A stretch of 64,000 nt of DNA from Microglena sp. YARC (Eukaryota > Chlorophyta > Chlorophyceae > Chlamydomonadales > Chlamydomonadaceae), in NCBI GenBank assembly GCA_022414725.1, contig CM039463.1:85405738-85469737 (forward strand). The letters run 5' to 3'. Positions within the stretch are counted from its first letter, which is position 1, and the number at the start of each line of letters is the position of its first letter. Below are positions 1 through 53,600 of this stretch, piece by piece. The translations under genes were made by a program, and so were the position numbers. The notes under the pieces were generated by a model, which saw only the letters and a program-made list of their open reading frames with translations, had not been told where the DNA came from and searched no databases.

Positions 1-3000
1 ACACCTTCTGGGGGATTCTTCCCAATCTGTATCACTACTCATCACTACTTTCCAATGCTGACCAATTCTGACTTATCATCGTCAACATTGGTGATGCCAG
101 TCAGCACCGCATCCTCATCTATATCACTACTTATCAATTCTTATCACAACGCATGAATTATTATCACTACTTATCAATTCTGATCACTAATTATCACAAC
201 TGATCACTACGAATTTATACTTTTTAGCAAGTTGCAACGCCCACCTTGGTGATGCCTGTCAGCACCTCAGCCTCATCTAGATATACTTATCAATATTTAT
301 CAACTCTTATCACTACTGATCAGTACTTATCACTACATATTAATACTTATCAACGCCCACCTTGGTGATGCCTGTCAGCACCTCAGCCTCGTCGAGCTTC
401 AGCTCGTCGAGCTGACGACCCAATAACTCCTCTATGCTGTGCACCAACTCAATGTCATGCTGTGTCACCAGACTCAGTGACCAACCCGAGCGTCCTGCAC
501 GGGCGGTACGACCAACCCGATGTACATAGTCTCTGCAAGTACAGTTGCGTAGCTGGTGTGAGTGAGGTTGGAGGTATGGTTTGGATTTGTTTTCTTCTCT
601 ATGTCATGCCGTGCCACCAGACTCAGTGACCAGCCCGAGCGTCCTGCACAGGCGGTACGACCAACCCGATGTACGTAGTCTCTGCAAGTACAGTTGCGTA
701 GCTGGTGTGAGTGGGGTTGGAGGTATGGTTTGGATTTGTTTTCTTCTATGTCATGCCGTGTTACTAGACTCAGTGACCAACTCAAGCGTCCTGCACGGGC
801 GGTACGACCAACCCGATGTACGTAGTCTCTGCAAGTACAGTTGCGTAGCTGGTGTGAGTGAGGTTTGGAAGTTTTATCTCTTGTTCACATCTCCTGTTCA
901 CTAGACCCAATGATTAACCAGAGCATCCAGAAGGTCGAAAGGTCATGTATTCATGTGATCACGTGATGATTCATGCATTCATGTGATAATAAACTAGGTG
1001 AGACAAGATACTAACATAGGATTATAAACAAACACTAATGTATCCTCCCCCTTCCTCCCTGCCCCTGGCCCTGTCCCCCCCCCCCCCCCCCCCCCCCTGC
1101 CTCCTCCCACCCTCCCCCCTTGCACCACTCCCCCAGAAAAAACTGTGCCAAGACAAGATAGGCAAGTCATAGTTGATCACCAGATCCACAGTGGCACCAT
1201 CTCCCCCCCCGCCCTGCCCTCTTCTCCCCGCCCCCGCCCCTCTACCACAAAACTTTACCTCGACAAGATAGGCAGGTCGTAGTTGATCACTAGATCCACC
1301 GTTGGGATATCCAGACCTCTGCTGGCAACATCCGTAGCGATGAGCAGTGGCACCATCTCGCTCTTGAAGCGATGCAAAGAGGCCAGGCGCTGCTTTTGAG
1401 ATTTGCCTGTAAAGGCACGAATACAGTGGCAGGTGTAAGGTTCACATGCATGTGTATGTGGGGGGGTCTAGGTGGTGTGTTGGCAGAAGGTGTGAGTTTC
1501 ATGCAGGAGGTTGAGTCATTCTTGTAGTCTCCTATTGCTTTTGGGGCTATCTGTGGGTCTGGGTCTGGGTCTGGGTGGTGTGTTGGCTGTGGGTGGGCTG
1601 TGGTTGTGGGTCTGGGAGGTGCGTTGGCAGGTGTGAGTTTCACATACAGGGGGTTGAGTCATTCTTGTAGTCGCCTATTGCTGTTGGGGCTATCTGTGGG
1701 TCTGGGTCTGGGTGGTGTGTTGGCTGTGGGTGAGCTGTGGTTATGGGTCAGGGTGGTGTGTTGGCAGAAGGTGTGAGTTTCACATGCAGGGGGTTGAGTC
1801 ATTCTTGTAGTCCCCAATTGCTGTTGGGCACTGCAAATTTAGGGGGTCTCAGGTACCCTTCTCTGCACCCCTGTGGCACCGGTGGGGGAAACTACCCTCT
1901 AGTGAGCTACCCTCCACAAGCCAGATCTCCTAGGGTTTAGGTTTTAGGGTTTAGGTTTTAGGGTTTTGGGGTTTAGGATATAAGGTTAGGGTTTAGGGTA
2001 TAGGAGATCTGGCTTGTGGAGGGTAGCTCACTGGAGGGTAGCTTCCCCCTCCTGTGGCACCCCTCTCATCCATAGTGCACCTTTCCAATCCTAACAAAAG
2101 GGTGCCAAAGACCCCAAATTAGCAGTGAGGGCCGTCTCACTCTTGAAACGATTTGAAGGGGCTAGGCATTGCTTTTGAGATTTGCCTGTCAAGGCGCGCG
2201 TGTCATGAAAGGTGCAAGCTTCACATGCAGGGTTCCCCCCCCCCCCCCCCCCCCCCCCCCCACTCATCCATACCTCCTCCCCCACCTCAACCCACCCCAC
2301 ATGCAGGGTTCCCCTCCCCCTCCCCCCCCCCCACTCATCCATACCCCCCTCACCCCACCCCACATGCAGGGTTCCCCCCCCCCCCCCCCACACACACACA
2401 TCCATAATACCCCCACTACCCACCTTCCCCCACCCCATATGCAGGGATCTGAGTCGTTCTTGTAGCCCTCAATGGATGTTGGGGCCATCTTACCCAGGAT
2501 CGATTAATAGAGGTTAGGCATTGCTTTTGAGATCTGCCTGTCAAGGCGTGAGTGTCATGACAGGTGTACGGTTCACATGCAGGGTTCCCCTCCTTCCCCC
2601 CCCCGTACATACGCCCCACTAACCCCACCTCACCCCACTCCACATGCAGGGTCCCCCCCCCCCCCCCCCCCCACTACCTCACCCCACCCCACATGCAGGG
2701 TTCTGAGTCGTTCTTGTAGCCCTCAATTGATGTTGGGGCCATCTTACTCAGGATCGATTAATAGGGGTTAGGCGTTGCTTTTGAGATCTGCCTGACAAGG
2801 CGTGAGTGTCATGACAGGTGTACGGTTCACACGCAGGGTTCTGCCTCCTCCCCCCCCCCCCCCCCCCCCCTCATCCATACCCCCACTACCCCACCCACCC
2901 CACATGCAGGGTTCTGAGTCGTTCTTGTAGCCCCGATGGATGTTGGGGCCATCTTACTCTGGAATGATTAAAAGAGGCTAGGCGCTGCTTTTGAGATTTA

Positions 3001-50600: not shown

Positions 50601-53600
50601 TCAGTTACAAATTCAAAGCAGCACTTCATCAGTGCAGAAGCATGGGTAGGCCAGTCCCTGATCGACCAGCTGGTTCGCAAGCTTCAAGTACAACTCCGTG
50701 CGATCGCTCTAGCGGTACGGGCCAACCTCTCCAGGGCAGTCTGGGCCTAGATACAGCAAGGGCCAACAGAGAGTCAGTTACAAATTTAAATCAACCTCTT
50801 TTACCACGCCCCATTCATGACTTGTGCCTAAAGCAATCATGACTCATGCCCAGTTTTTTTTAGTTCAGAAAGTGGGGGGGTTATAGCTGTATGGGTTCAG
50901 GCCTCCTCCAGGGACAGCGTCCTTAATGCTTTTTATCGGTTTGAAGGGCCATAGATATGGGTTCTTTATAGCGGCGGTTTGGGCCAAAACAGGGTCAAAA
51001 GTAGCAAAAGCTATATATAGCAGGGGGGGGGGGGGGGGGGGGATCTGCTCAGCCTAAAGCAAGCCAAGGTCAACACAAGGCGTGCTATTTATCACACACT
51101 TCTGCACACTCACTCAGAATATGTGAACTGAATCAATAAATAGTACGTCTTAGTCCTAGGCTTGAGGTTGAGGGGGCCAGCCTGTTTGATTGTACTGGGG
51201 CCAACCACCAATAGATCTGAAATATAATACCAAGCTCGTTTGATTACAATTGAAGGTACTTTCAGCATCAAAGAAACCTGAAATTCATGCACTGTCTAAA
51301 CTAATAGGTTATACTTTTTCAAAATTAATATGGACTTACAACTTCCCCCCCAGAACAAACTCATCCAAGCATATGGGCCCTGCGTTAACATTTTGTACTC
51401 AGAGTGTACTGCTGTACTACGTGCATAAGGCACTATGTGTGCACTCTGTGTGCACTCTGTGTGTGGTTTGGTGGTGATTCTATATTTTAAAGTCGTAGAT
51501 GTATTCATTCTATCTCATAATCATTATTAAAAAAAACTAATATTTTTCATTTTTTTGAACTATGACATACGGATGACATAGTATTTTTGTATTAAAAAAA
51601 ACGAGACATTTATGCCACCCATGATAACTCCACCTGAAGGTGGAGAACAGCCTCGTGTTTAGTCAGAACTGTCAAACCAGTTCAGGACAACATCATATGC
51701 CTTGAACATGTCTGCAGACCATCCTTGCAAGTCAGAGTAGGTAATCCTACGGGGGTCTCCACTATGCGTCAACCCCATGAAGCGTGGTGTAGCCTCTAGG
51801 ACCATGGTGTCCAAATCAAGGAATACTCGGTCACCTGACCCCAGGCCAAGACCCCAAACCAAGCCAAGCCAAGTCTCTTACCCCAGACCATGCCACCCCA
51901 GGCCAAGACCCCACACCAAGCCAAGCCAAGTCTCTTACCCCAGACCATGCCACCCCAGGCCAAGACACCCAAGACCAAGACACCCAACACCAGGCCACTT
52001 ACCCTCGTCCCAATCCAGGCCAAGCCACTTGAGGTCCCTCATCATATCCTCCTCAGACGCACGGGTGGAGCGAGCGGCATCAGTGTCCTCTACCCTGTGG
52101 TTTTAGTAATTCAAAATTCAAAATTTGAAGTCATTTGTAGGGTTGGGCCGACGTATGAACGTATACTCATACGTTTAGAAGCTCATACGTATATATACGC
52201 CGTATATTTTTTCTCGAAACGTATGAGTATAAACGTATAAAAACGCATGAGTTGTACTTCCAATTGTTCCCGGCACTTCACTTCCTTAGTTTTCATTCAA
52301 TTTATCATTTAGATAGCTCATCGGAAAGCTCTTGACCTCCTCTATCACATTATGCAATCAAATTAATCTTTCACACATACCATCTTGTTTAAATGTGGCC
52401 TACAGTTTGATTTAGATAGCCAGGATGGCACACATACCAGAGCGCCACCTAGCCTTCCATTCCACAAGCTGTGCTCCTAGATGGGCTTGAAGGATTGATA
52501 GTGCAAGCCTAGTGCAATGTGAAGATGGAAAATATTGCAATATAATTATATACTAATATTATTATAACCTGTAGCTGACTCGCAGAGCTGCCTAGAAGCT
52601 GCTGCACACTTGGTCTGAAACCTGTAGCTGACTCACAGAGCTGCCTAGAAGCTGCATCACACTTGGTCTGAAACCAGTAGCTGACTTAGGGAGCAGGGTA
52701 TAAATAATGATGTGAACATGGACAATATTAATATATTATTGGCATTGAATGGATCCCTTAGATTGGCACCGCGCTTCTTGGTCGACGCGCTTTCTGGCCG
52801 TGATTTCTTTTTCTGAGATTTGGACAATCTAAAATTGCCAGAATATTTTTTTGAGAGTTGATATGCAAAGCCAATGAAATTAGCAACGCGGCAATACCTT
52901 TAAACCCATGTAAAAGTCTTTTCCTAAGAAGTGCAATAATTACTCATACGTTTTTATACGTTTATAAGCATACGTTTATACGGCATATAAAAATGAAAAT
53001 ATATGTTTGCTTCCCAACCCTAGTCATTTGATTGTTAATAAAAAATGTATGATAAACTTGGGGGCAAGTTAATTTGGTGTCTCACGTGTACCTAGGGTAC
53101 GGCAACTAATATTAGTGTTTGAAAAACTAATTTTTACATATTTTATTGTAGTGTCCCAGAGTGTCCAAATAATATTAGTTTTTCGAATATATTCAAAATT
53201 CTGGTGAGACAACTCGTCAGTCTAATATTTACTAACATTCACTAATATTATTCAGTCACTAATATGAACTAACTAAGCCTTTCCCTACGTATACCTAGGG
53301 AACGGCAATATGATATCATACAATATCATGTGATGCCGGCAGTCTGACTAGGCTAAAGTTACCATTTATATACGATATCATATGATGCAATTTGTATAAT
53401 ATCATTTGATATCATACTTGCCTTTGGTCAACATCATATGATTTTCCGGTCCCTACTTATACACATTCAGCAGATGATTTAGATGTGAGTCTCATAGTTG
53501 GTAGTCCCTTCAACCCGAGAAATTGGCCTGATAATTCTGACATTTTGGCCCGAGAATTGAGAAATCTGATAATTCTGATAATTTGTCAGATTTCTCACTT

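Follow-up and report, generated by a model that had tools for sequence, protein, structure and literature searches.

The question raised by this locus is how an intron comes to hold copies of the ends of its own exons. In the window, by which we mean the whole 64,000-nt stretch of DNA analysed here, the initial annotation had described exon edges copied into the adjoining introns of three unrelated genes. We placed exons by translation and splice sites, and scored an edge as straddled when a direct copy at least 37/50 identical lay no more than 2.5 kb away. Self-BLAST and TRF of the window found arrays at the places claimed, and the copying of exon edges into adjoining introns was confirmed for two of the genes, encoding a DDX49-like helicase and a bacterial-type glutamyl-tRNA synthetase (GluRS): 20 of their 37 splice edges fall within direct repeats whose second copy is in the adjoining intron. 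Edge copies were recognised by their match to their own exon. The third, an F-box LRR gene, has a doubtful model and was excluded from the splice-edge counts. Offset signs placed the best copy on the intron side for all 20 straddled edges, with 0 to 8 copies per edge at 38/50. By the same measure, no points (0/152) were straddled in the 15.9-17.4-kb spacer, 6% and 10% were in two other window stretches without mapped exons, and 36% (DDX49) and 50% (GluRS) were inside introns. Therefore, the repeats are real, and the edges show no strong excess over the introns around them.

The DDX49-like DEAD-box helicase gene (361..15854, minus strand) has an open joined frame with GT/AG edges. Its eight exons (15854-15402, 13981-13763, 11839-11744, 10837-10610, 8270-8208, 7373-7220, 1406-1259 and 532-361) join to 511 aa without a stop, and no duplicated coding segment is present in the joined frame. 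PF00271, PF00270 and PDB matches identify it as a DEAD-box helicase; the subfamily is presumably DDX49, a name taken from the initial annotation. A GT donor past 361 suggests that the gene probably runs beyond the window start. Exons 3, 4, 5, 7 and 8 had been named as clear cases, and indeed all five acceptors are straddled, together with the donor of exon 8. At exon 8, a 149-bp array (448..865; 49/50 match) carries the acceptor and ∼81 coding bases, so that two decoys precede the true edge. Decoy copies of the exon 7 acceptor edge (1464..3124; 37/50, with 4 copies at 36/50) form two clusters, some of them distant. A 55-bp array (8259..8420) repeats the exon 5 acceptor with 12 coding bases, a 145-bp array (10768..11516) repeats the exon 4 acceptor with ∼70 coding bases, and the exon 3 acceptor-edge copies (11781..12418) have a 10-bp intronic array in between. 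For comparison, a 30-bp array (3901..4414) lies in an intron interior and touches no mapped exon. A foreign insert in the exon 4 units was considered and rejected, since alignment by eye and an older translated copy fit a diverged exon piece better.

The GluRS gene (37844..52094, minus strand; TIGR00464 gltX_bact, 377 bits) was mapped to a partial list of exons at 52094-52003, 50227-50095, 49411-49279, 47916-47759, 45463-45338, 44481-44367, 43278-43213, 42046-41891, 40625-40518, 39281-39204 and 37959-37844. The frame stays open between exons A and L, and a further small exon is predicted ahead of the last mapped one (M) from the frame of the latter. Fourteen GluRS edges are straddled. The initial claim does not hold for exon 52094-52003, both edges of which fall under the threshold (25/50 and 29/50). 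Exon 50227-50095 has a 173-bp acceptor-edge array and one donor-edge copy (49954..50793); the array units are 95-98% alike and cover 127 of the 133 exon bases. Exon 49411-49279 has acceptor-edge copies and a donor-edge copy (48994..49893), the latter at 48994-49074 with 35/50 at the edge and 86% identity over 81 bases. Both sides of exon 47916-47759 are arrayed, the acceptor edge at 47858..48688 and the donor edge at 46255..47820 (8 copies at threshold, units 71-95% alike), as are those of exon 45463-45338 (150-bp acceptor-edge array, 45394..46149; donor-edge copies, 44987..45382) and exon 42046-41891 (acceptor-edge copies at offset 117, 42015..42417; 153-bp donor-edge array, 41345..41913). 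Single edges are copied at exon 44481-44367 (donor-edge array, 44098..44452), exon 40625-40518 (donor-edge and partial copies, 40011..40608), exon 39281-39204 (donor-edge copies of period 106-116, 38965..39247) and exon 37959-37844 (acceptor-edge copy at offset 188, 37887..38248). A 40-bp array in an intron interior (43509..44083) again touches no mapped exon. Many exon ends have additional copies, most of which look intact, in the intron next to them.

In the F-box LRR ORF, coding boundaries are copied as well. A 150-bp array of about seven copies (18385..19419) repeats the start codon and first codons, a coding boundary at which a splice site is not clear. The array proposed for the upstream edge of exon 1 is therefore present, but the copied boundary is the start codon; a clear acceptor was not found, and the sole nearby candidate AG is missing from three of the six listed start-codon sites. 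A 170-bp array (19819..20285) repeats the end of exon 1 with a candidate donor, and a 159-bp array (28556..29870) holds eight acceptor copies with the start of exon 2. Read straight from the donor at 19910, all eight exon 2 acceptor copies run into a stop before the exon ends, which could mean that this is a pseudogene or that the model is wrong. Copies also cross the stop codon (32341..32744; 41/50). In all, 3 of 10 start and stop codon boundaries are straddled.

The survey was widened to chaperonin loci in other parts of this 568-Mb genome. From 64 PF00118 matches, 13 were dropped as single-exon, fragmentary or stray (one inside the g3 stretch), and the other 51 rows, from 11 loci, entered the analysis as 50 intervals, with hand-trimming of several where stops occurred. 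Splice edges were chosen by a scoring matrix derived from the window exons and by closeness to the profile match; removal of scores of 3 or below and of last-exon donors reduced 100 possible edges to 83. Twenty of these were straddled, in 8 of the 11 loci. Tandem repeats were also common away from edges. TRF coverage at periods of at least 50 was 18% in the window, 19% in the chaperonin loci and 10% in eight preset 5-kb stretches, and by a 50-mer measure at periods of at least 100 the preset stretches averaged 22% and the chaperonin loci 21%. Within introns, the copies run head to tail with similar period, as in minisatellites. The TRF and 50-mer measures support a high general rate of tandem duplication, one of the two explanations that the initial annotation had offered. 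Among 174 arrays drawn from the window, the chaperonin loci and the preset stretches (of which 85 fall below 50 bp), the period histogram has a slight bump at 140-160 (15 versus 6 and 7 in the flanking bins). Edge-array periods in the window had seemed to cluster at 106-190 bp, and nucleosome-sized units were considered; given the wider histogram, we make no such claim.

Duplication might instead be favoured in transcribed DNA generally, in introns over intergenic DNA but not at edges, a reading that we consider unlikely. In the window, 26-40% of intron points were repeated at periods of at least 100, compared with 0-4% in three stretches that have no mapped exon, and the TRF difference between chaperonin loci and preset stretches points the same way. 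However, the stretches without mapped exons may contain unmapped GluRS exons, the 5′ flank of the F-box ORF reached 79%, and the near-equal 50-mer values for the preset stretches and chaperonin loci argue against such a bias, although the preset stretches are unannotated.

The other explanation offered initially was a process that favours splice junctions, and a check of breakpoint preference had been proposed. For this test, the 37 window edges were combined with the 83 chaperonin edges; complexity filters reduced these 120 to 119 and 105. With intron points of the same genes as control, 40 of 119 edges were straddled versus 42.9 expected, and under the stricter filter 36 of 105 versus 35.8. 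The chaperonin edges taken separately gave 20 versus 31.8 expected from background points of any complexity. When edges were shifted against arrays (outermost edges omitted, leaving 106), 43/106 lay inside arrays with a null of 43.7; three other settings gave 41, 39 and 39 versus 37.0, 36.7 and 35.0. Edges were thus straddled about as often as intron points, and the part of the check that did favour junctions was the tally of edge-touching arrays: 35 versus 30.1, 33 versus 26.0, 35 versus 26.5 and 35 versus 28.0 across the four settings (P = 0.09, 0.03, 0.008 and 0.04, respectively), or 1.16-1.32-fold over the shifted null. By the edge counts, array placement was independent of exon edges, this small excess notwithstanding, and a junction-favouring process is not supported. 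Conserved exons ease the recognition of edge copies, which could account for this excess and for the trends within the window described below; the figures are uncorrected in this respect.

A mechanism that targets splice junctions, acting perhaps via transcription, R-loops or spliced RNA, is accordingly improbable, even though the 20/37 window edges set against the intron points of DDX49 and GluRS and the edge-touching excess both lean towards it. In DDX49 and GluRS, repeat coverage is also 0.47-0.56 in the first 150 bp from an edge and drops to 0.20-0.36 at distances above 600 bp. Yet in the chaperonin loci coverage is flat with distance (0.26 at edges, 0.25-0.51 deeper in introns), the combined matched-point test gave no excess, edges lay inside arrays with little or no excess, some start and stop codon boundaries are also straddled, and 98 of 133 arrays touch no edge. 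The proposal that introns have grown by adding junctions holds as a description, but edge-free arrays contain more bases than edge-touching ones (28,495 versus 24,130 in the first of the four shift settings).

Among 142 copies at 52 exons, no whole-exon copy was found, compared with about 5.4 of 40 edges expected from a rough uniform-breakpoint model using hand-entered unit lengths. The absence of whole-exon copies had not been predicted by the initial annotation. Since no whole exon was found copied in the genes examined while edges are copied about as often as intron DNA, splicing is suggested to remove only the usable copies. Whole-exon copies excluded (0/142) and single-edge copies tolerated form the pattern expected of exon definition; it is consistent with that mode of recognition, not proof of it. 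Contrary to the initial annotation, the copies do not always keep their acceptor or donor: AG/GT is intact in 84 of 94, compared with 68 expected from flank identity. Intact decoys score below the true site on average (by 1.1 bits for acceptors and 1.5 bits for donors), and 50 of the 84 are no more than 1 bit below it. The excess of kept dinucleotides might indicate that the decoy junctions are functional, in alternative splicing or as retained buffers. We regard this as very improbable, because the true site is invariant at the dinucleotide, which biases the flank-based expectation low; the lower average score and the exon fragments that run into intron also count against it. Assembly artefact is scarcely credible as a source of the arrays: in nine arrays whose units were compared, identity between units is 71-100% and most pairs are not identical, units diverge by up to 29% and have indels of their own, and edge copies recur in 8/11 chaperonin loci located elsewhere in the genome.

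We propose, with a probability of roughly 75%, that general tandem duplication is combined with selection against whole-exon copies, single-edge decoys being tolerated. What the 13 genes show directly is the arrays, the lack of clear enrichment at edges, the absence of a whole-exon copy at 52 exons and the retention of decoy dinucleotides. The nuclear genome would undergo frequent local tandem duplication, with units between tens and a few hundred bases long that are amplified again into arrays of 2 to ∼10. Duplication would have no clear preference for splice junctions, and a unit that happened to cross an exon edge would copy that edge outward. Copies of a whole exon, with both sites, would be spliced in and lost by selection. 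Copies of one edge would be harmless provided that splicing works by exon definition, with sites paired across the exon and the one next to the exon body chosen; they could then build up as intron with their decoy sites mostly intact. The underlying DNA mechanism is probably slippage or microhomology-mediated duplication; breakpoint microhomology was inspected by eye in four arrays only. Exon definition probably operates here, and the decoys are presumably not used in splicing.

A stronger form is that neutral tandem duplication keeps placing intact decoy acceptors upstream of exons and decoy donors downstream, which the spliceosome ignores by position alone under strict exon definition; copies of whole exons would be purged, and those of single edges would accumulate. 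This is a tentative proposal, which we hold at somewhat less than even odds. If true, the genome would be a large-scale natural splicing experiment, and intron length would be determined by the rate of duplication, as filtered through the way exons are recognised. If the pattern is genome-wide, the introns of one organism contain a very large number of rival copies of their own splice sites, graded in age. Sequence and RNA together could then reveal how a spliceosome chooses among similar sites and how selection acts against partial and whole copies of exons. It would also demonstrate that introns can grow when ordinary gene sequence is tandemly duplicated.

Intronic minisatellite or satellite expansion also lengthens introns by tandem arrays. 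In contrast, the units in this alga often hold a coding edge and a splice site, and lie in ordinary housekeeping genes. One CP29-like exon of this genome has the CP29 chains of 9is4 and 6kac, the latter from Chlamydomonas reinhardtii, as its best PDB matches, which makes a chlamydomonadalean likely. Relatives of Chlamydomonas, probably a related lineage, have long introns too, and the passages of PMC8226300 that treat them put genome-size differences down largely to transposons and satellites and do not mention copied exon edges. In the literature searched, with limited terms, no exon edges arrayed in introns were described, aside from one tandem duplication across a splice junction reported in PMC4974935. 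There, the duplication across the acceptor inherits a putative branch site, polypyrimidine tract and AG, which is the point of likeness; that single event gave a new intron with inserted exonic sequence, whereas in the alga the copies remain in the old intron, form arrays and occur at about a third of the edges tested (40/120). In Rogers-type AGGT exon duplication (as described in PMC4974935) and duplication-derived novel introns of Drosophila (PMC2891723), local tandem duplication alters exon-intron structure as it does here, but there coding sequence is duplicated and intron positions are created, whereas in the alga existing introns lengthen.

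Direct repeats are dense in the window by both TRF and self-BLAST. Two genes could be modelled there with checked GT/AG edges: a DDX49-like helicase (eight exons placed; joined frame of 511 aa without a stop) and a bacterial-type GluRS (11 exons placed; TIGR00464, 377 bits over residues 1–364 of the joined 388). For each splice edge, the 50 bases centred on it were compared with every position up to 2.5 kb away, at a threshold of at least 37/50 matches. By this measure 20 of the 37 edges in the two genes have a nearby copy, always on the intron side (20/20). The initial annotation proposed that exon edges are tandemly copied into the adjoining introns, and this comparison bore it out at DDX49 exons 3, 4, 5, 7 and 8; the GluRS exon at 52094–52003 fell below threshold at both edges. 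The copies claimed in a third gene, encoding an F-box LRR protein, are present, but its model is doubtful: reading straight on from the donor at 19910, each of the eight exon 2 acceptor copies (array at 28556–29870) meets a stop before the exon end, the one that adjoins the exon body after just a few codons. A pseudogene or an incorrect model could account for this, and tandem duplication might have disabled the gene, which was excluded from the splice-edge counts.

The same 50-base, 2.5-kb test was applied to 11 chaperonin-family loci (PF00118) elsewhere in the genome. Here, 20 of 83 edges were straddled, i.e. inside a direct repeat with another copy nearby, again with 20/20 on the intron side. 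At least one straddled edge occurred in 8 of the 11 loci (exactly one each in g1, g2 and g6); by this test g8, g9 and g10 had none, and g9 and g10 contain few repeats of any kind.

With expected counts derived from each gene's share of intron points inside repeats, no excess of edges over intron points was found in the window and chaperonin genes together (40/119 straddled; 42.9 expected). A stricter complexity filter gave 36/105 against 35.8, other identity thresholds gave 44, 40, 36 and 34 against 47.2, 39.1, 35.7 and 30.4, and the chaperonin loci alone, without the complexity filter, gave 20 against 31.8. In the window alone, edges lay above their own introns (20/37 versus 36% and 50% of intron points). 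When the exon pattern was moved against the arrays to give a null, 43/106 edges fell inside arrays compared with 43.7, and 41, 39 and 39 compared with 37.0, 36.7 and 35.0 under three other settings. Arrays touching an edge were slightly more numerous than the null, at 35, 33, 35 and 35 against 30.1, 26.0, 26.5 and 28.0 across the four settings (P = 0.09, 0.03, 0.008 and 0.04); 98 of 133 arrays touched no edge under the first. We take the excess of edge-touching arrays to be 1.2–1.3-fold at most, and it could be explained by conserved exon sequence being easier to detect. Repeat coverage in DDX49 and GluRS was 0.47–0.56 within 150 bp of edges and 0.20–0.36 beyond 600 bp; the chaperonin loci showed no fall over distance (0.26 at edges, 0.25–0.51 deeper in introns). 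Among ten non-splice coding boundaries tested, three were straddled: one chaperonin stop and the F-box start and stop codons, both covered by arrays.

The share of sequence lying in arrays of period ≥50 was 18% in the window, 19% in the chaperonin loci and 10% across eight 5-kb stretches taken at preset coordinates; a 50-mer measure gave 24% for the chaperonin loci and an average of 25% for the preset stretches (range 0–77%). Window stretches without mapped exons were repeat-poor (0–10%), and the 5′ flank of the F-box open reading frame was rich (86%). Units were 71–100% alike within the nine arrays compared and therefore expanded at different times, making assembly duplication an unlikely source. 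Outside the mapped genes, a 76-bp array at 58118–58426 has copies 100% identical over 309 bp, and is a very recent expansion. Two direct copies of ∼950 bp at 21960–24693 are 84% alike and 1.76 kb apart; ATT-type simple repeats separate them, and both may derive from a dispersed element.

The assembly, in which the window occupies G000:C2:85405738–85469737, spans 568 Mb in 2,390 contigs, the contig C1 alone accounting for 195 Mb. PF00504, the light-harvesting family, has 118 matches in it, nine of them C-terminal matches forming a tandem gene cluster within ∼185 kb (G000:C2:53990236–54175160). For a CP29-like exon, the best solved relatives are CP29 chains from the green-algal structures 9is4 and 6kac. 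Together with the PF00504 matches, this places the host among the green algae, probably in the Chlamydomonadales. About 20 of 48 DEAD-domain matches are near-equal (∼107–118 bits; open frames of roughly 330–650 aa) and scattered genome-wide (L005–L008 and other places), perhaps as an amplified or mobile family.

Copies of exons within 3.5 kb were sought by BLAST for the 52 exons with both edges mapped. At least one was found for 36 exons, 142 copies in sum: 67 partial on the acceptor side, 62 partial on the donor side, 11 interior and two unclassed partial copies that begin or finish within 3 bases of an edge. None of the 142 was a whole exon; one unit covers 127 of 133 exon bases yet falls short of the end. 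If breakpoints were uniform within units, ∼5.4 whole-exon cases would be expected for 40 edges (probability of seeing none ∼0.0006, a rough figure as unit lengths were entered by hand).

Many edge copies are decoys, carrying the splice dinucleotide into the neighbouring intron. AG or GT was kept in 84 of 94 copies at 40 edges (42/47 each) versus 68 expected from flank identity, and the counts gave no sign of purging of decoy dinucleotides. Decoy sites are somewhat weaker than true sites: intact acceptors score on average 1.1 bits lower and intact donors 1.5 bits lower. For acceptors and donors alike, 25 of 42 lie at most 1 bit under the true site, and 10 acceptors and three donors outscore it.

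Tandem arrays cross edges at no clear excess, whole-exon copies are absent at 52 exons, and intact decoys persist. The arrays may arise by slippage at the DNA level or by microhomology-mediated duplication, and be re-amplified afterwards. Splicing would proceed by exon definition, using whichever acceptor lies closest to the donor across the exon, so that single-edge copies would be harmless and whole-exon copies harmful. A transcript survey puts the cassette-exon fraction of C. reinhardtii at 22% (PMC2397502), which makes exon definition plausible in this lineage, though it does not establish it.
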